DNA of 55,817 nucleotides from a virus. Below are positions 39,866 to 53,936 of this stretch, piece after piece. Location of the stretch: positions 1 to 55,817 of the IMG/VR virus record IMGVR_UViG_3300025732_000050; one strand, written 5' to 3'. The translations under genes were made by a program, and so were the position numbers. The notes beneath the pieces are model-generated. The model did not search any database. It saw only the letters and a list, made by a program, of their open reading frames with translations, and had not been told where the DNA came from. The stretch's first letter is position 1. Every line of letters starts with the position of its first letter.

Positions 39866-41455
39866 CTATTGAGAAGATCTACCCTCGCCTTTTGGATTCC
39901 GTCCACTAATTGTGGCTGGACCATCAGATTGGTTGTTTAGTCGCTCCCCATCCCTTGCTCTTTGCACATTATCTGCTGGCTTTGGCTGGAAAGGCTCATC
40001 TCCTCCTTCCCGTTGAGGAAGTCCAAGTGTCTGTCTTGCCTCATTTGGAAGCATAACTTGAGTCTTTATATATCTTTCAATGATCTGTGACTGAGCAATT
40101 TCATCAGTCAGAGTTAATTCCTTAAACTTCAGCAATAGGATATCTGTCTTTTCTTTGATAATCTTATTTAGAGTTTTTTCTAATTCCTTTTGTGCTGGTC
40201 TTGAAACCTGTTCTTTAAAGGTTCTATCTTGTGCAAGTGCTGCAGCAAGTCCACCTGCTTCTCCTCCACCAATTTTAGAAAGTGGAACTTGGTGAGCAAT
40301 TAAAATATCATCACGATTTTGTTTACGATATCTTTCAAATGAACCTTCTTGTACACCGTTTTCAATTGGCTCCATCTTAAACTCAACTTTATTTTGATCC
40401 GTATCTCCTGGAAGTGGAATATAAAGTGTTCTATGTGATTGTCCTTTAAGATTGGTTTGTAAAAATCTAAACATTTTATCTTCAGCATCAGATGATAGTC
40501 TTGCACCCTTAAGTGTAATAACATAACGTGGTACAGCCTTGTTACTGAAATAATCAATATTATATTGTGAGGCTAATTGATCACCATAAAGTGAATTAAT
40601 TGCTGACATAATATCTGGAACACCATAAAATGTATTTAGTGGTGAATACTGTTTAAAATGAATAATCTCATTTGGTCTTGGATCATCTGTAATTGGATTT
40701 GGATTGTTTGCGCCAAAGTTTCTAAAGTAAACAACCTTCTGTCCAATAATTTGAACATAACCATCACGTAGTCTGCGAACACGCATTGTGGTTGCTGGAA
40801 TGTGGCCTACATAACCAATTTGTCCAGATGTTGTTCTACCTACTTCAAGATAACCATTTCCGATTGCCTGCATATCTGTATATACCTTGGTCATTGTAGT
40901 TGTAAAAGAATCATCATCATTTAATGATTCAATCCAAGCATGCATTTCAATCTTTGCTCTTTCAATTCTATTTCTTGCCCTATCAACCTGTCCAGAGTCT
41001 GAGTTTGATTCTAGTTTAAGCATTGTGCTTGGAGATAGTTCAAAATCATATCCAAGACCAACAACATTTTCTACCTTTGCATCAATAGCAGCATGGTTGG
41101 CAAATGAAGTATCGTAGAAATTTGCTAATTCATAAACATTCCATGGTGGAGTAATAACATCAAAAAGTCCATATGCATTTCTGTATACTGTTCCAGGATT
41201 AATTTCTTTTGAACGTGCACCATCAATACCGCTTTGATTTGCTCTTGCACTATCCATGTAGCCTTGCATATTATCTGGTGCTAAAGACTTTTCTGCAATT
41301 CTGTTTGTGCGACGCTTAAAATTATTTCCCAAACCAGAATATGTTTTTAGTTCAGACCAAACCTTGTTGAATGGATCTTCTTGTTTAAACTGATCCAAGA
41401 AACTAGATGGTGTGTCTATATTCGCATTAATAAAAATCTGATCTTCGTTTGACAT
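39866..41455 (-). CDS. Portal protein
   Basis: The protein has 529 residues, in the usual portal range. It shows the portal body pattern: NHAAIDAKVENVVGLGYDFEL, then IPATTMRVRRLRDG, EIIHFKQYSPLNTFYGVPDIM and a long wing with KAVPRYVITLKGA. The C-terminal 60 residues are Pro/Gly/Asn-rich and disordered. The dodecamer forms the DNA gate and terminase docking site. It starts one base inside the small gene before it and precedes the protease gene by 56 bases. Confidence 0.92.
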   Translation of the reverse strand: MSNEDQIFINANIDTPSSFLDQFKQEDPFNKVWSELKTYSGLGNNFKRRTNRIAEKSLAPDNMQGYMDSARANQSGIDGARSKEINPGTVYRNAYGLFDVITPPWNVYELANFYDTSFANHAAIDAKVENVVGLGYDFELSPSTMLKLESNSDSGQVDRARNRIERAKIEMHAWIESLNDDDSFTTTMTKVYTDMQAIGNGYLEVGRTTSGQIGYVGHIPATTMRVRRLRDGYVQIIGQKVVYFRNFGANNPNPITDDPRPNEIIHFKQYSPLNTFYGVPDIMSAINSLYGDQLASQYNIDYFSNKAVPRYVITLKGARLSSDAEDKMFRFLQTNLKGQSHRTLYIPLPGDTDQNKVEFKMEPIENGVQEGSFERYRKQNRDDILIAHQVPLSKIGGGEAGGLAAALAQDRTFKEQVSRPAQKELEKTLNKIIKEKTDILLLKFKELTLTDEIAQSQIIERYIKTQVMLPNEARQTLGLPQREGGDEPFQPKPADNVQRARDGERLNNQSDGPATISGRNPKGEGRSSQ

Positions 41456-46697: not shown

Positions 46698-48728
46698 TTA
46701 TCCTATCTTAATCTCGCATGCATCGGTTGTGCAGTATGCCTCACCCATTGCTTCCAAGTTATCCACACCTTCATAAATAGCAGAAAAATCAATCTTTTTG
46801 ATCTGTCCAATATAACTGTTATACTCTTCTTCAGAAATCTGAGTATATGGTTGTTGTGGATATACTGTATTTCCCATTGGAAGGAATGATACAGCCTTTA
46901 ATTGTCCCTCATACATATGTAGTGCTGGGGCAACATGCTTTGCTTCCGTTTCCTTATCAAAGGAAAGAGTTACAGAAACACCATTGTCTGACCAATACTT
47001 TTGTGCAGTTGCTGCAAGTGCAATCTTTTCAAATAGCGTCACGTCTTTTTCGGAACGTGGGTGTCCAGATTTAACTGGGAAATATACTACAGATGTATTT
47101 GCTGAAACAACATCTTTTTCAATTTTATATCCTGCTGCGCTGAACAAGTGAATCATTGGATCTGTATTTCCAAATCTAATTGCACGAAGGAAGTGGTTAC
47201 CTCCAGGACCCCAGTGAACTCCAGGTGTTGCACCAGAAAGAATAGATACAGAACCAGATGGCTTAACAGTTGTTACACGAATCGATTCACGAACACATAG
47301 CCACTCTGAATATTGACGGTCATATTTACGAATTGTTTGATATCCCTCATCCATCCATTCACGAACTGCTGGCAAACCTTTCTGATCTGCAAATGATGCA
47401 ATACCAGTTAGGGATGTTCCAATACGGCGGTTGCGTTGCATAATTCCATTTGTCTGTTGCCAGTGTGTTGGAAGAAGCGTTACTGTCTTGCCATAAAGAT
47501 AAGCAAATTTTAATGTTCTCAAGAAATCTTCTTTAGATTCATGTCTATTTAAATGAACCTCTACTAATGTACAAAGTTCATATGATTCTAGCGGTTGCTC
47601 AGCACATGGATTAAAGCCCATAACACGATAATCTTTTCCATCTGCTGGATCTGCCAAACGACCATAATTACGAGCAACATCTAACCAGATAAAACCTGGC
47701 TCTCCATTATTAACAATTAAATCTGTGTATTTATCATAATCCATTCCAACTGTTGCTGAAATTGAATTATTAGACATCCAGGCCCAACCTGGATTTTCTG
47801 AATCAAATGAATTGCGTTCTGGGAAAACTTCAGCATTCTTAAGATTAATAAAATCTTCATCTCCAGATGCACCCAAAGCAAGGGTTGCCGATCTACGAAC
47901 ATTTCCTGCAACTACGCATGTTCCAATTAGATTAACAATATCAACAATTGCTCTTGAATCTAGTATCTGTCCAGCCCTAGAGCCAATTACATTGCGGATA
48001 GAGTTATGTAGACGAATCAATGGTTCTGGACCGCTGGCAACCCCTCCAAAGCCCTTAATTGGTGTTCCTAGCGGACGGATGAGGTCATAGTTAAATTCTT
48101 GTATATTTTGATTTGCTCTCAGGAATGAATTAAGAAGAAGTCTAATAGATTCTACCCATCCTTCACGAGTGTCTGGAATTTCATAAATCTGTACTGGCTC
48201 AGTTGGCTCATAGATTGTAAAATTCTTTTCCTGACCAACGGTATCAAACCCTACACCAATACCAAGCATGAGAGCATCCATAACCCAAGCAAATAGTGCT
48301 CCTGGATCATTCTTATCTAAATCTTTTGTTGAGACCATTGCACAATTTTGAAGAGCAGCAGAGTTGCGCTTTTCCATTGTCATGGCTGTACCAAATGTCC
48401 ACATACCACGTCCTGGGGGTGTCCACTTAAGATTAAACATTCTATCAAATGCTTCCTTGGCAGATGACTGAGCCTTATAGTCATTCCATGGTAGACGATT
48501 TTCTTTGGCATGGTTCTTTTGAACTGAGTACATACCCTCAATCACACGACGGCAAACCTCATGCCATCTTTCCTTAGTTCCATCATCCTTCATACGGGAG
48601 TAGGTACGAATAAACGTAATCTCTCCCAAAGAATTATTACCAGCGTCTACAAAACCAAAAGGCGACTCCTTGATTTTATACTCATTGATGAACTCATCTG
48701 GTAAACGAAAACTAAAAAAATCTGACAT
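46698..48728 (-). CDS. nrdJ: Class II (adenosylcobalamin-dependent) ribonucleotide reductase
   Basis: The protein has 676 residues and resembles the monomeric class II enzyme. Key residues are C129 in QNCAMVS, C375-A-E377 and C386 in FNPCAEQPLESYELCTLVE (radical cysteine, glutamate and redox partner), and a C-terminal pair C666/C671 in YCTTDACEIK for re-reduction. It makes deoxyribonucleotides using vitamin B12 coenzyme, independent of oxygen. A likely promoter and an AAGGAG site precede it. A host able to supply cobalamin is implied. It is a typical lytic-phage auxiliary gene. Confidence 0.95.
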   Translation of the reverse strand: MSDFFSFRLPDEFINEYKIKESPFGFVDAGNNSLGEITFIRTYSRMKDDGTKERWHEVCRRVIEGMYSVQKNHAKENRLPWNDYKAQSSAKEAFDRMFNLKWTPPGRGMWTFGTAMTMEKRNSAALQNCAMVSTKDLDKNDPGALFAWVMDALMLGIGVGFDTVGQEKNFTIYEPTEPVQIYEIPDTREGWVESIRLLLNSFLRANQNIQEFNYDLIRPLGTPIKGFGGVASGPEPLIRLHNSIRNVIGSRAGQILDSRAIVDIVNLIGTCVVAGNVRRSATLALGASGDEDFINLKNAEVFPERNSFDSENPGWAWMSNNSISATVGMDYDKYTDLIVNNGEPGFIWLDVARNYGRLADPADGKDYRVMGFNPCAEQPLESYELCTLVEVHLNRHESKEDFLRTLKFAYLYGKTVTLLPTHWQQTNGIMQRNRRIGTSLTGIASFADQKGLPAVREWMDEGYQTIRKYDRQYSEWLCVRESIRVTTVKPSGSVSILSGATPGVHWGPGGNHFLRAIRFGNTDPMIHLFSAAGYKIEKDVVSANTSVVYFPVKSGHPRSEKDVTLFEKIALAATAQKYWSDNGVSVTLSFDKETEAKHVAPALHMYEGQLKAVSFLPMGNTVYPQQPYTQISEEEYNSYIGQIKKIDFSAIYEGVDNLEAMGEAYCTTDACEIKIG

Positions 48729-48944: not shown

Positions 48945-49579
48945 AGTTCTATCCATCCATTACCAAGGCCATCGACTGCTGGTGCTATGTCATAGGCGAT
49001 TGTAATTCTTGGCTTGTCTTGATACCAGTCATCTCTACCGTGTGGATGTCCAGTTTCAGAAACGATTGCTCTATTGTTTTTATTAATGTTTTCAAATGCA
49101 TCAACGCCATTAATCTTATAAAAAGTAGATGATGGCTCAGCATTTACGCAGTAATATCCATGAAATACTGGAGCACCTTCTCCGCCCATGTGGTCATGAA
49201 AGAATCTTTCATTCTTTAATGGGTTAACTCCACTAGTTCCAATTGTTTTTGGATCATAATTGAACCAACCTTTAATTGCAAACTTATTTGCTTCAAAATC
49301 AAGACCATAATATTCTGATGCCTCAATCATAATATCCCTCAGTGCAGACTTCAGTGCTTGAACTGATGGGTGCGTAAAATTAAAGATATTATAATATTTA
49401 CCAAGTTGCGTAGCAGCACCATTATCTTTATTGTATTTTGATAACTCTTCTCTAGGAATTTCTGTAAGGGTTCCTGCAAGAAGTTCGTCCTGCTTCATTT
49501 CAAGGTAGGTGTACATTTCATCTAGGTTATTATCTAGAAATCTGTCAAAGAACTTATGTGGTGGTTTCATTGCTATCAT
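48941..49579 (-). CDS. 2OG/Fe(II) oxygenase-like protein C1 (HDH type)
   Basis: The protein has 212 residues and is a tandem relative of C2. Metal-site candidates are H128-D-H130 (FFHDHMGG), then HGYYCVNAEPSSTFYK, and H178/H180 with R191 in ETGHPHGRDDWYQDKPRIT. In this phage-associated group the H-x-D motif is written H-x-H or uses the Asp between. It probably binds iron and 2-oxoglutarate, but which residues do so is uncertain. It starts in an ATGA overlap with C2. The substrate is unknown. Confidence 0.7.
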   Translation of the reverse strand: MIAMKPPHKFFDRFLDNNLDEMYTYLEMKQDELLAGTLTEIPREELSKYNKDNGAATQLGKYYNIFNFTHPSVQALKSALRDIMIEASEYYGLDFEANKFAIKGWFNYDPKTIGTSGVNPLKNERFFHDHMGGEGAPVFHGYYCVNAEPSSTFYKINGVDAFENINKNNRAIVSETGHPHGRDDWYQDKPRITIAYDIAPAVDGLGNGWIEL

Positions 49580-50241
49580 GCCAAAGGAATCCAGTGTTGC
49601 TCTTGTGAAGACCCAAAACGCATAATATCTCTAAGTGGAATTACATCATATGCAACTGTAATTCTAGGACCATCCCAATCCCAATCAGCCATTGCATGTG
49701 GATGTCCCATTTCTGACAAAATTGCACGGTTATTAGTATTATAGTTTTCTACATACTTATCAAATGCCTTATAGTGTGTTATTGATGGTTCTGCATTTAC
49801 ACAGTAGTACCCGTGAAAGTTTGGTGCTCCAAGTGGACCATGATCGTGCCAATCCAACTTGCCTTTTTTAGTATGATTAATATTAAACCAACCCTGTAGC
49901 ATATATTTTTGTTCGTCAAAATCAATATCGTAATATTCACATGCTTCTTTAACCATGTCAGACACGGCAAGGTATAAATGATAAATTTCTTCGATATGAA
50001 ACTGGAATACGTTGTACTGTCTCCATTTCATGGTTGAAACGCTATTGGATGATTTCCAAATTTCATTATCTGTAACGGGTGTTACACCAGTTACCTGTGC
50101 TTGTTCAATTTTTTGGTATCTGTCTTGTAGTTCTCCTGCTAGACGAACTAAATCATTATTAAGATATCTTTCAAAAAATCTGTGTGGTTGTGTGGACTTA
50201 CTTACGCTTTGTAGTCCTTCTGTTGGAAAATCTTCCATCAT
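49576..50241 (-). CDS. 2OG/Fe(II) oxygenase-like protein C2 (HDH type)
   Basis: The start is placed at ATG 50241, which has GGAG six bases upstream; ATG 50253 lacks a site. The product has 221 residues: WHDHGPLGAPNFHGYYCVNA (H132, H134), then SEMGHPHAMADWDWDGPRIT (H180, H182, R193). These blocks match C1 closely while the rest has diverged, so this is an old tandem duplication. It follows the sulfotransferase by 24 bases. The presence of both copies suggests two targets or a heterodimer. Confidence 0.7.
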   Translation of the reverse strand: MMEDFPTEGLQSVSKSTQPHRFFERYLNNDLVRLAGELQDRYQKIEQAQVTGVTPVTDNEIWKSSNSVSTMKWRQYNVFQFHIEEIYHLYLAVSDMVKEACEYYDIDFDEQKYMLQGWFNINHTKKGKLDWHDHGPLGAPNFHGYYCVNAEPSITHYKAFDKYVENYNTNNRAILSEMGHPHAMADWDWDGPRITVAYDVIPLRDIMRFGSSQEQHWIPLA

Positions 50242-50265
50242 TTTTGTCTCCATTCGACTTTACTA

Positions 50266-50991
50266 TTATACACCATTTAAAGACTTGTGCTCATTGGTTT
50301 TGACATAATCATATAGATGATAATCAATACTATTTAACTCTTCAATTCGTGATTTAATGCTTTCAGGAATTTCAAAATCCAGTCCTGAAGACTCGTTTAT
50401 AGGATGTCTTTGATTAAATAGAGGAAACCCATAGTCCCTCCTACTAATATCTGAAAGCCAATCTAATAATGAATCAATATTTTCCAAAGATACGACTTTC
50501 ATCATGTCTATTTTGTCTGTTATTTTTTTGATATCAGACTCATAGTTTTCAATCATCCAGCCGTTAGCAACAATTTCTGGTCTTGTAGCAGCATTCCAGC
50601 GATCTTTATTAGATGAACCAGTCAAAAACTTAGACTGAATATTTCTATGGTTTTCTGAAAATACTGGATCATAAACCCATTTTTCAAGCAATTCCATTGT
50701 TGGCTTAGTATAAAATACATGCTCAGAGAAGAAGTTAAAAGTACTTATGAATCTTTGAAAAGGGTCACGTACCACCGAAAATGAACAAACATCTTCTAAA
50801 ATAGTTTCTGGATAACAACCAATATGCCCAAAAATATATTTTGATTTTTTTATTTTATCATCATCAATTTTATTTTTTTGAAATACAAGAGAATAATTAA
50901 TTCCCCTACTATTTAATAAGGAAGTAATAGGGGAATGAATAAATGTGCCTGCAGTTCGGGGGATATGATTATGATGATAAATCACTCTCAA
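50266..50991 (-). CDS. Sulfotransferase (PAPS-dependent, heparan 2-O-type fold)
   Basis: The protein has 241 residues. The PAPS-binding loop HIPRTAGTF lies at residues 9-17 (compare the family motif HIPKTAGT), and the second PAPS motif VVRDPFQRFISTF at 73-85 has R75 and S83. It would move sulfate from PAPS to a hydroxyl on glycan or protein. Two starts are possible: TTG 50991 and GTG 50985. The spacing to GGGGG favours the GTG. The start region lies in a large inverted repeat (see 50957-51000). Neighbours are the Hint-domain protein upstream and oxygenases downstream. Confidence 0.85.
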   Translation of the reverse strand: MRVIYHHNHIPRTAGTFIHSPITSLLNSRGINYSLVFQKNKIDDDKIKKSKYIFGHIGCYPETILEDVCSFSVVRDPFQRFISTFNFFSEHVFYTKPTMELLEKWVYDPVFSENHRNIQSKFLTGSSNKDRWNAATRPEIVANGWMIENYESDIKKITDKIDMMKVVSLENIDSLLDWLSDISRRDYGFPLFNQRHPINESSGLDFEIPESIKSRIEELNSIDYHLYDYVKTNEHKSLNGV

Positions 50992-51015: not shown

Positions 51016-52395
51016 TTAATAGTACTTCAGATTGTGCATAACTAGATTTGCTGCAATGAATGTATCAGCATCTTCACAGTCAAATCTAAATGTATTTGCA
51101 TCTCCTTCAATCTGTTGTACTGTTTGAATTAGTACTTCAGAGAAGGCATCATGCTCATATGAATATTCAATTACGTGATCTCCTGGTTCTAATGAACCTG
51201 ATAGAACGTACATATAAGCACCATTGCGCTTTGTAAGAATTGGCTGATTAAGTGAGAACTTCTTAGAAGCCTCTCCATTAATTGTCATTGTTACAGTTTT
51301 TGGTTGTGGTGTCTTAGAAATAACCTTTGTTTTACGTAGTTCTAGATTTGTAATTGTTGGGGAAGACCATTCTAGTGAAGAATCAAATCCTTCATCTAGG
51401 TACTCAGCCCATACAACACCCCATACTTCATCTCCAGGCTGAACTTCACTTGCTGGCTTTGTTCCATATCCACCAGTTTCAGTAACAACTGAGATTAATG
51501 TATTTTCATCAACGCATCCTCCGAATGAGAATGGTGAGAAACCGAATACACCGAATGGTGAAAAACCAAATGGTGAGAAGCCGAATACACCGAACGGAGA
51601 GAATCCGAATGGTGAGAAACCGAACACGCCAAATGGTGAGAATCCAAACACGCCAAATGGTGAGAATCCAAATGGAGAGAATCCAAACACACCAAATGGT
51701 GAGAATCCGAATACACCGAATGGTGAGAATCCAAATACTGAGAAAGGTACGAATGAAAATGTTGTAGTGCTTGATGAATAGTCAGACCATTCTCCATAAC
51801 CATCAGAGTTCTGTGCACGTACACGATATGCTTGTGCTGTTCCACCTTCTTGGTTTACGTTTACAGATGTTGATGAGGTTGTTCCAGACTTACCGTCGTT
51901 AGATTCCCATTGATATCCTGTAATTGCAGATCCACCATTTTCAGGTGCAGACCATGAAACTGTATCGTATGATACGTTCGATGGAGAAGATGCTGATGGT
52001 GCTGCAGGCTTTCCTGGAAGACCAGTAACGTCTTGTGATCCACCAGAAACTTCTGTTGAAGTTACTGATGTATTTGATTGTCCAATTGTTGCATTGGCCT
52101 TAATCTTAAATGTCCAGGATGCTCCAGAACGTAGCCCTGTAACTCTATAAGGAGAAGTTGTTGCTGTAAAAGTTCTATCTCCATATGTTGCATTAGAAGC
52201 AGTGATTGTGTATGATGATGCTGTAGCACCGACACCGCCTCCTGGCATGAAATATACATCATAATCACCACTAAGGTAGGATACTCCAACACGTACTACT
52301 GATGTAATAACTGGGTCTGCTGGTTGAATACCCCAGTATCTAATAGTCTGCTTAGCAGCCTTAGATGCTTTACCGCCTCTTCTAATAATTCCCAT
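51016..52395 (-). CDS. Fibronectin-type protein with FSPFG repeats and C-terminal Hint domain
   Basis: The protein has 459 residues in four parts. A short basic start is followed by two fibronectin-type-III-like units (about 28-125 and 128-212, with WSAPENGGSAITGYQW typical of FN3). Residues 213-292 hold ten FSPF repeats. Residues 294-459 form a Hint domain: block A begins C294-VDENTLISV and continues PASEVQPGDEVW, block B is FSLNQPILTKRNG with LEPGDHVIEY, and the end is TFRFDC then DTFIAANLVMHN, followed only by LKYY. The usual T-x-x-H of block B is S-L-N-Q here. Splicing is impossible (nothing useful follows HN); cleavage before Cys294 is possible. Probably surface-exposed; function unknown. 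Confidence 0.85.
   Translation of the reverse strand: MGIIRRGGKASKAAKQTIRYWGIQPADPVITSVVRVGVSYLSGDYDVYFMPGGGVGATASSYTITASNATYGDRTFTATTSPYRVTGLRSGASWTFKIKANATIGQSNTSVTSTEVSGGSQDVTGLPGKPAAPSASSPSNVSYDTVSWSAPENGGSAITGYQWESNDGKSGTTSSTSVNVNQEGGTAQAYRVRAQNSDGYGEWSDYSSSTTTFSFVPFSVFGFSPFGVFGFSPFGVFGFSPFGFSPFGVFGFSPFGVFGFSPFGFSPFGVFGFSPFGFSPFGVFGFSPFSFGGCVDENTLISVVTETGGYGTKPASEVQPGDEVWGVVWAEYLDEGFDSSLEWSSPTITNLELRKTKVISKTPQPKTVTMTINGEASKKFSLNQPILTKRNGAYMYVLSGSLEPGDHVIEYSYEHDAFSEVLIQTVQQIEGDANTFRFDCEDADTFIAANLVMHNLKYY
51520..51759 (-). repeat. FSPFG/FSPFGVFG tandem repeat tract
   Basis: Ten FSPF motifs start at residues 223, 231, 239, 244, 252, 260, 265, 273, 278 and 286. Steps are 8,8,5,8,8,5,8,5,8, so 8-residue (FSPFGVFG) and 5-residue (FSPFG) units alternate. 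The DNA repeats are near-identical and likely vary in number by recombination. It joins the FN3 region to the Hint domain. Confidence 0.9.
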
Positions 52396-52422: not shown

Positions 52423-53883
52423 TTATGCTGTTAAGTCGCCTGAAACGATCCAAGTGTTTGTATCACGCTTGATTGCTGTTGCTGCAGAGTACTGAGCACG
52501 TAATTTCAAACCTGGTGTGTAAAGAACTGTAACTCCTGCTGCTGCAGCAATTGTTGTCTGTCCTGTTCCACGTTGGAAAATATCGATAGCAGTTCCGACT
52601 GGGAATGCCACTGAGGCATTTGTAGGAATAGTTACTGTATTAGCACTTGATCCTGTCATTTCTACCATATTTGTTGCATCTGAAAGTGCAAGTGTATAAC
52701 TTGATGCTTGTGCATTGAATGATGATAATGTTGCTGCATCAAGTTCTGTCTTACTTGCCTTTGCTGCAAGTGCATTTGTAATTGTTGTTGCATAGTTTGC
52801 GTCATTACCAAGTGCTGCAGCCAACTCATTAAGTGTATTAAGGGTTGATGGAGCAGATGCTACTAAATCTGAAACTGCACCAGTTACGAATGCTGTTGTT
52901 GCAATTTGTGTAGTATTTGTTCCTGCTGTTGCAGTTGGTGCTGCTGGTGTACCAGTAAATGTTGGTGAAGCCAGTGCTGCTTTTGCTGCAAGATCTGATG
53001 TAAGACTTGTAATCTTATTTTGTGATAGTGTTCCACTGATCTTAGCATCTGTTACAGATTCATCAGATGGTGTACGTGTATCTGATAGACGTGAGTCATT
53101 TGTATAAACAAGGTCATCTGTATTAGAGATACCATGAACATTTGTCTTATCTGCATTATGATCTGAAATTGCTGCTGATGTTGCTACACCTGCTGCAGTA
53201 AGTGCTGCAGTTGCTTTTGATTGTGCATCTGCTGCTGCGGTTGCTGTTGCTTGACTAACTGCATCGTTTACTCCAATTGCTACTGCATCATCAATTGCAT
53301 CGTTCATAGCAGTTGTTGTAACAAGAACTGTTGTGTCTGCAATACCGTGAACATTGTGGCTTGCATTGTGTGCTGATAGTGAGTCTGCAGATAAATCTAC
53401 TGCAGATTGAATTGTTGTCTCAAGTGCAGTTGTAAGATTAGCATTTGTTACTAACTCTGCTGTATCTGCAATACCGTGAACACTTTCTGTAAGAGCATTG
53501 TGTACTGATAATGCTCCTTCAGTATTGGTAAGGGCTGTTTGTGCAGCCTGAACTGCATCTGCAATTTCCTTAAGAGTATCTAATGCTTCTGGTGCTGAAT
53601 CTACAAGGTCTGCTAATTGACCAAGTGGGATTCTTCCGACTGAGTTAAGTGTTGCCACACCATTTGGCACACCCTTTTCTGTAAGCGGAACATAATCATC
53701 GAGTGTTCCACCTAGGTCTTCTAAATTCTTGAAGTAGGAGAGGTCTGACCATGCGTTAACGCCGTCACCAATCTTAAATTGGCTGGTATCTGTTTCAAAT
53801 CCAATTTCTCCTGCTGCCAAAATTGGGTCTGCATCAGTCCATTGCTGAGCAGTACCTCTGCGTTGCTGCATTCTTGTTGCCAT
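52423..53883 (-). CDS. Tail fibre/receptor-binding protein with Mtd-N-like start
   Basis: The protein has 486 residues from ATG 53883, which has AAGGAG about 8 bases upstream; an ATG at 53913 lies in a hairpin and is disfavoured. The first 55 residues (MQQRRGTAQQWTDADPILAAG, then GFETDTSQFKIGDG) match the N-terminal module of Mtd-like and other phage fibre proteins. Next come repeats with HG-I-(A/S)-(D/N)-T spacing, a phage fibre unit (SPTFTGTPAAPTATAGTNT, with TTAFV) and a small C-terminal beta domain. It probably attaches the phage to its host. There is no reverse transcriptase nearby, so no sign of a diversity retroelement. Confidence 0.8.
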   Translation of the reverse strand: MATRMQQRRGTAQQWTDADPILAAGEIGFETDTSQFKIGDGVNAWSDLSYFKNLEDLGGTLDDYVPLTEKGVPNGVATLNSVGRIPLGQLADLVDSAPEALDTLKEIADAVQAAQTALTNTEGALSVHNALTESVHGIADTAELVTNANLTTALETTIQSAVDLSADSLSAHNASHNVHGIADTTVLVTTTAMNDAIDDAVAIGVNDAVSQATATAAADAQSKATAALTAAGVATSAAISDHNADKTNVHGISNTDDLVYTNDSRLSDTRTPSDESVTDAKISGTLSQNKITSLTSDLAAKAALASPTFTGTPAAPTATAGTNTTQIATTAFVTGAVSDLVASAPSTLNTLNELAAALGNDANYATTITNALAAKASKTELDAATLSSFNAQASSYTLALSDATNMVEMTGSSANTVTIPTNASVAFPVGTAIDIFQRGTGQTTIAAAAGVTVLYTPGLKLRAQYSAATAIKRDTNTWIVSGDLTA

Positions 53884-53898
53884 ATTCTTTATCTCCTT

Positions 53899-53936
53899 AT
53901 GGGTGCTACCCATCTTTTACTTTTCTTATTATAACA
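53899..53936 (-). promoter_or_regulatory. Extended -10 element and leader hairpin before the fibre gene
   Basis: The minus strand reads TGTTATAAT (53936-53928), a perfect extended -10. A perfect hairpin, ATGGGT-AGC-ACCCAT (53913-53899), follows just before the AAGGAG of the fibre gene. The hairpin may affect mRNA stability or translation. Confidence 0.5.

Follow-up and report, generated by a model that had tools for sequence, protein, structure and literature searches.

A Hint-fold domain with a substituted block B at the end of an aromatic-repeat phage tail-module protein: a candidate self-processing cassette

What can a Hint domain do at the extreme end of a phage tail protein when it begins with Cys and closes with His-Asn, lacks the block-B His and is followed by no C-extein? 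The question is raised by a gene in a viral DNA of 55,817 nucleotides (IMG/VR record IMGVR_UViG_3300025732_000050; the whole stretch is here called the window), whose 459-residue product joins an FN3 region, an aromatic array and the domain in question (Table 1). A sequence-only reading of the gene had claimed a Cys at the start of block A, Ser-Leu-Asn-Gln as an altered block B, and a terminal His-Asn followed by Leu-Lys-Tyr-Tyr and the stop codon; all of these residues were correctly placed and are seen in the window protein. The FN3 match lies above the Pfam cutoff (1.3e-5). The array is a near-perfect series of FSPFG and FGV units encoded by tandem repeats in the DNA, with 31 Phe, 18 Gly and 11 Pro among its 82 residues and 11 FxPF units, and it runs directly into Cys294, so that Gly293 is the -1 residue. 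Leu456 occupies the +1 position, with no Cys, Ser or Thr there, and the protein ends four residues past Asn455. In the alignment, the block F4 position is Arg437, not Asp. The proposed tail or surface context agrees with the adjoining tail-fibre gene, which has an Mtd_N domain.

Table 1. Coordinates of the features discussed (window positions unless a locus is given)
Feature	Position	Strand	Basis
FN3/aromatic array/Hint protein, whole gene, 459 aa	51016..52395	minus	ORF with ATG start
Basic N-terminus and FN3 region, residues 1-211	51763..52395	minus	Pfam fn3, best stretch 140-208
FSPFG/FGV aromatic array, residues 212-293	51517..51762	minus	composition, DNA tandem repeats
Hint domain and 4-residue tail, residues 294-459	51019..51516	minus	AlphaFold2, Foldseek, profile
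Cys294, Hint residue 1 (block A)	51514..51516	minus	Cys or Ser in 117/117 homologous domains
S381-L-N-Q384, block B, Gln at B10	51244..51255	minus	alignment of homologues
H454-N455, block G (G6, G7)	51031..51036	minus	HN in 46/49 members without block-B His
L-K-Y-Y tail after N455	51019..51030	minus	followed by stop codon
Mtd_N-domain tail-fibre gene, upstream of Hint gene	52423..53913	minus	domain match
Sulfotransfer_2 gene, downstream, adjoins Hint gene	50266..50991	minus	domain match
Tandem paralogues, 212/225 aa	48941-49579, 49576-50253	minus	conserved downstream of FSPFG gene in many phages
Class II (B12-dependent) ribonucleotide reductase	46698-48728		
Portal	39866-41455	minus	identity to Streptomyces phages
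Stand-alone Hint-like gene	L070:8688-9338	minus	
Stand-alone Hint-like gene	L126:897-1514	plus	
Stand-alone Hint-like gene	L089:2113-2472	minus	
Stand-alone Hint-like gene	L037:2275-2772	plus	
Stand-alone Hint-like gene	L350:6944-7405	plus	
Stand-alone Hint-like genes	L032, L150, L311		
FSPFG and degenerate Hint end (LLSD)	L206:1281-2441	minus	3.2-kb contig binned as Chitinophagaceae

We examined whether the C-terminal part is a Hint domain by the profile search and structure prediction that the sequence-only reading had proposed. With the Hint part as a single sequence, searches of Pfam, PHROG and NCBIfam gave no credible match, and tblastn against named phages reached E values of about 3-8 at best. 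A profile of 16 homologues did match known structures in the PDB, among them the Clostridium thermocellum bacterial intein-like (BIL) domain 2lwy (1.7e-6) and the Pho RadA intein (1.2e-5), and 8 of its 16 members matched Pfam Intein_splicing. The AlphaFold2 model was confidently all-beta (pLDDT 94.2, pTM 0.89), and its Foldseek matches in the PDB, with E values from 1e-5 to 2e-7, were the Mtu RecA intein (the best), BIL2, the Ssp DnaB intein and hedgehog. Among viral models the best matches were BFVD A0A6J5MFV5 (‘Fibronectin type III’) and A0A6J7WKC1 (‘Hint domain containing protein’), both from uncultured Caudovirales phages, with TM scores of 0.90-0.91; these labels are automatic annotation. 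We conclude, with very little doubt, that residues 294-459 adopt the Hint fold, the match being well above chance.

Homologous loci were collected by scanning IMG/VR for the array, the block-F motif and close relatives of the Hint domain, and all their ORFs were then surveyed with an HMM. The scan patterns favour loci with the array and block F, and introduce no such bias at positions 1, B10 or G7. A first extraction of homologues had required Cys or Ser at position 1; the HMM survey made no selection there, although it shifted the start of block A to a Cys or Ser close by, and these starts were then checked by eye. The survey yielded 117 different Hint domains of full length, those of the jumbo phages among them. 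Each lies at the C-terminus of its own ORF and has Cys or Ser at position 1. The window Hint is thus no single-phage oddity but has relatives in many phages; its class II relative matched Erwinia jumbo phages by tblastn with E values down to 3e-7. A scan of genomic contigs for the array returned one real member, on the short contig of a Chitinophagaceae MAG (L206, Table 1). This contig is probably stray phage DNA, and we therefore draw no host claim from it.

The domains fall into three sets of active-site residues. Forty-eight, forming one clade, start with Ser and without exception combine it with a B10 His and a G7 Asp (48/48); the penultimate residue, usually His in Hint domains, varies here among H, F, Y and S. 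Loci of this Ser class (class II) include L017, L104, L031 and L107, and the model of the L017 domain is confident and mainly beta (pLDDT 91.4). The Cys1 domains comprise 20 with the B10 His (the canonical set, Cys1/His/HN) and 49 without it, nearly all of which have Gln there, the few E or R cases being alignment-dependent. The window carries this Cys1/Gln/HN set (CQ), in which the His-Asn pair is kept in 46/49 (exceptions HI, HT and AS). When the sequences were clustered at 80% identity and their columns ranked for conservation, the key positions were among the most conserved, both in the Gln class (Cys1 and Ser B7 in 14/14 clusters, His G6 in 13/14, Gln B10 in 13/14, Asn G7 in 11/14) and in the Ser class (Ser1, His B10 and Asp G7 each in 22/22). 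With these columns excluded, the tree gave a single Ser/Asp switch and three changes at B10; the association of Cys with Asn and of Ser with Asp is therefore one event that was kept, not repeated convergence. A search among CQ relatives for a residue compensating the lost block-B His gave nothing consistent or convincing. A bulky -1 residue was rejected as a general compensation, because Gly is the commonest -1 residue in the CQ class, the window included. Lys or Arg does occur within the first three tail residues after HN in 32/32 CQ representatives, and could be structural or serve as an internal amine.

The domain also comes and goes. Orthologues that share the genes downstream but lack the Hint stop a few residues past the array (FSPFSPYSRG, FAPWGGGRYPI, FTPFNFTPR). 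On a tree of the FN3 domain adjoining the array, Hint classes and the Hint-less state interchange with 18 changes, in a tree of few columns and with a Hint-less count that is slightly high since L325 is probably mislabelled; its well-supported branches force at least five changes for each of two big classes. Between L068 and L085-type genes the FN3 regions are close (dN about 0.12) and the Hints diverged (dN about 0.42). These comparisons show the Hint to be an exchangeable C-terminal cassette that is acquired, replaced and lost whole. Within the domain, dN/dS was 0.117 between the window and L004 and 0.08-0.17 among most L085-type genes; the value of 0.54 for L085-L158 comes from very few changes. 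The pattern points to purifying selection, and because, in addition, the Gln that replaces the His is a conserved residue (in 94% of CQ clusters), the inactive remnant that the sequence-only reading had allowed for is contradicted in so far as plain decay is meant.

Among known systems, the window Hint is closest to type A BIL domains. It shares with 2lwy, the best PDB sequence match of the family profile, the Hint fold, Cys1, the C-terminal His-Asn, and the lack of a +1 nucleophile and of an endonuclease; it differs in its position at the extreme C-terminus of a tail-module protein, its four-residue tail and its block B, where the T-x-x-H of type A BIL and hedgehog domains is replaced by an S-L-N-Q type common to a large group. 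Mini-inteins (Mtu RecA 2in9, Pho RadA) share the fold and block order, but the window Hint has Arg at F4 and no +1 nucleophile, does not reside in a housekeeping enzyme, and has LKYY alone where a canonical class 1 intein has a real C-extein. Assignment as a class 3 intein was rejected, since that class has Cys at F4, a WCT motif and no Cys1, whereas here F4 aligns with Arg437 and Cys294 is present; so was PT-HINT of polymorphic toxins, there being no match to Pfam PF07591 and no toxin domain after the Hint. The hedgehog autoprocessing domain (1at0) resembles it in fold, Cys1 and C-terminal position after a releasable body, but has a sterol-recognition extension and the block-B His, and the window domain ends in HN. 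Virion structural proteins of Erwinia, Dickeya and Yersinia jumbo phages (phrog_38766) and of phage NCTB are likewise tail-module proteins with a Hint end and a short basic tail; their large bodies are collagen-like or otherwise not FSPFG, and those read have the canonical Cys1, T-x-x-H and HN. The suggestion that such a protein had not been described stands for the papers searched, among which we found none on phage Hint tail proteins or their processing, but not for databases, which label relatives ‘Hint domain containing protein’ or, for NCTB, ‘phage tail protein, contains intein domain’.

The neighbourhood of the window gene (Table 1) offers several further observations. Within the window subgroup, 10 distinct Hint genes have a Sulfotransfer_2 gene directly after them, whereas orthologues without the Hint pass straight to the following gene; the Hint and the sulfotransferase may be inherited or transferred as a pair. 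The two downstream paralogues may be 2OG-Fe(II) oxygenases, as suggested by HxD...H patterns seen by eye and, for one of them, a weak match to phrog_2696. The portal is 48% identical to those of Streptomyces phages Coruscant and Mandalore, from which we infer that this freshwater-type phage is probably a siphovirus of actinobacteria. A gene pair recurs in FSPFG phages from fresh water and in phage NCTB (BN7874_136/135): immediately after a tail gene with a Hint end, and often overlapping it, comes a stand-alone Hint-like gene that mostly lacks Cys1 and/or the block-B His. L023, L104, L107 and L120 have long (FGA)n arrays or Pro-Val repeats replacing or beside FSPFG, and these aromatic-glycine arrays resemble FG-repeat cohesive sequences.

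Absence of a C-extein had been taken to mean that the domain cannot splice. This does not follow: type A BILs, which end in HN and likewise lack a +1 nucleophile, mainly cleave but also show some splicing (PMC4031507, PMC7664689), and there are four residues after N455. The reading we prefer, with the chances for and against it nearly balanced, is slow or conditional self-processing by a type A BIL-like cassette borne by a tail-fibre-module protein, at the end of its very hydrophobic array, rather than fast cis-splicing. Cys294 would attack the Gly293 carbonyl to form a thioester, which would be hydrolysed or captured by an amine (the freed tail included, as in BIL splicing); cyclisation of Asn455 would free LKYY; and the mature protein would end at or just past the array. 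The strongest point in favour of processing, albeit a circumstantial one, is that this predicted form resembles the orthologues that naturally lack the Hint. The Cys/Gln lineage would then have its C-terminal chemistry intact and its N-terminal half weakened, and the Ser/His/Asp lineage the reverse. Some inteins without the block-B His still splice through compensation (PMC7664689, PMC6333167), in the latter study by a bulky -1 residue. Gly-1, however, requires the His, and in Ssp DnaB/M86 loss of the His together with Gly-1 blocks the N-S shift (PMC6333167). Because the window has Gly-1, its N-terminal step is expected to be weak or triggered, and cyclisation of the C-terminal Asn to be chemically intact.

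Self-processing in some form, taken broadly, is on balance somewhat probable from the sequences: the strict Cys or Ser at position 1, the near-constant HN, the invariant Ser1-His-Asp, the low dN/dS and the ends of the Hint-less orthologues all speak for it. Speaking against it are the lost block-B His, the Gly at -1, Arg437 at F4 and the want of a consistent compensating residue in the window protein and, among relatives, the Asn lost from three CQ members (HI, HT and AS) and the stand-alone or degenerate Hint proteins that have nothing to cleave. An efficient N-terminal cut in particular is made less likely by the first two and by the degenerate partners. The lost His, Gly-1 and the missing F4 Asp would also suit a non-cutting structural Hint, acting as a C-terminal cap or as an oligomerization or docking module, its old active-site residues kept for folding or partner binding. 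Such a role is also suggested by the Asn being replaced in L037 and L039 and missing in L053, by the Lys or Arg right after HN, pointless in a tail that is merely cut off, and by degenerate stand-alone Hints beside Hint tail genes in L070, L081, L089, L032, L150, L037 and phage NCTB; with nothing to cleave, these show that the phages also use the fold for purposes other than self-excision. Strict Cys or Ser at position 1 and near-strict Asn or Asp at G7 across 117 diverged domains nevertheless exceed the needs of a scaffold, and Hint-less orthologues manage at the same place without one. We regard the structural role, the chief rival, as possible but less probable than self-processing.

Hedgehog-like or amine-directed anchoring, in which the Gly293-Cys294 thioester would be passed to a nucleophile (an amine of the host envelope, a tail Lys or a small molecule) and leave the FN3-FSPFG part covalently attached, seems improbable. 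It could draw on the retained thioester-forming Cys1, the basic residue after HN in every CQ representative and the sulfotransferase gene that directly follows in the window subgroup, but there is no sterol-recognition region, and the protein lacks the block-B His on which hedgehog and most inteins depend for the acyl shift. Chance resemblance or a functionless pseudogene remnant, for which the failure of single-sequence profile searches might be cited, is hardly credible given the AlphaFold2 and Foldseek results, the profile matches, the purifying selection and the wide spread. A wider proposal, which we consider unlikely though less so than anchoring, is of a phage tail-module Hint family with the canonical and two fixed non-canonical sets, Cys1/Gln-B10/His-Asn and Ser1/His-B10/Asp-G7, the latter like a Ser-His-Asp protease triad in a Hint fold; its members would serve tail proteins with aromatic repeats as interchangeable ends that release or link themselves, in some phages with a separate degenerate Hint partner.

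Whichever of these applies, orthologues offer a natural series of one domain at one place: canonical, Gln-substituted, Ser/His/Asp and no Hint at all. Active domains would add new, small tools of cleavage or ligation; inactive ones would be a clear case of a Hint made into a structural part.
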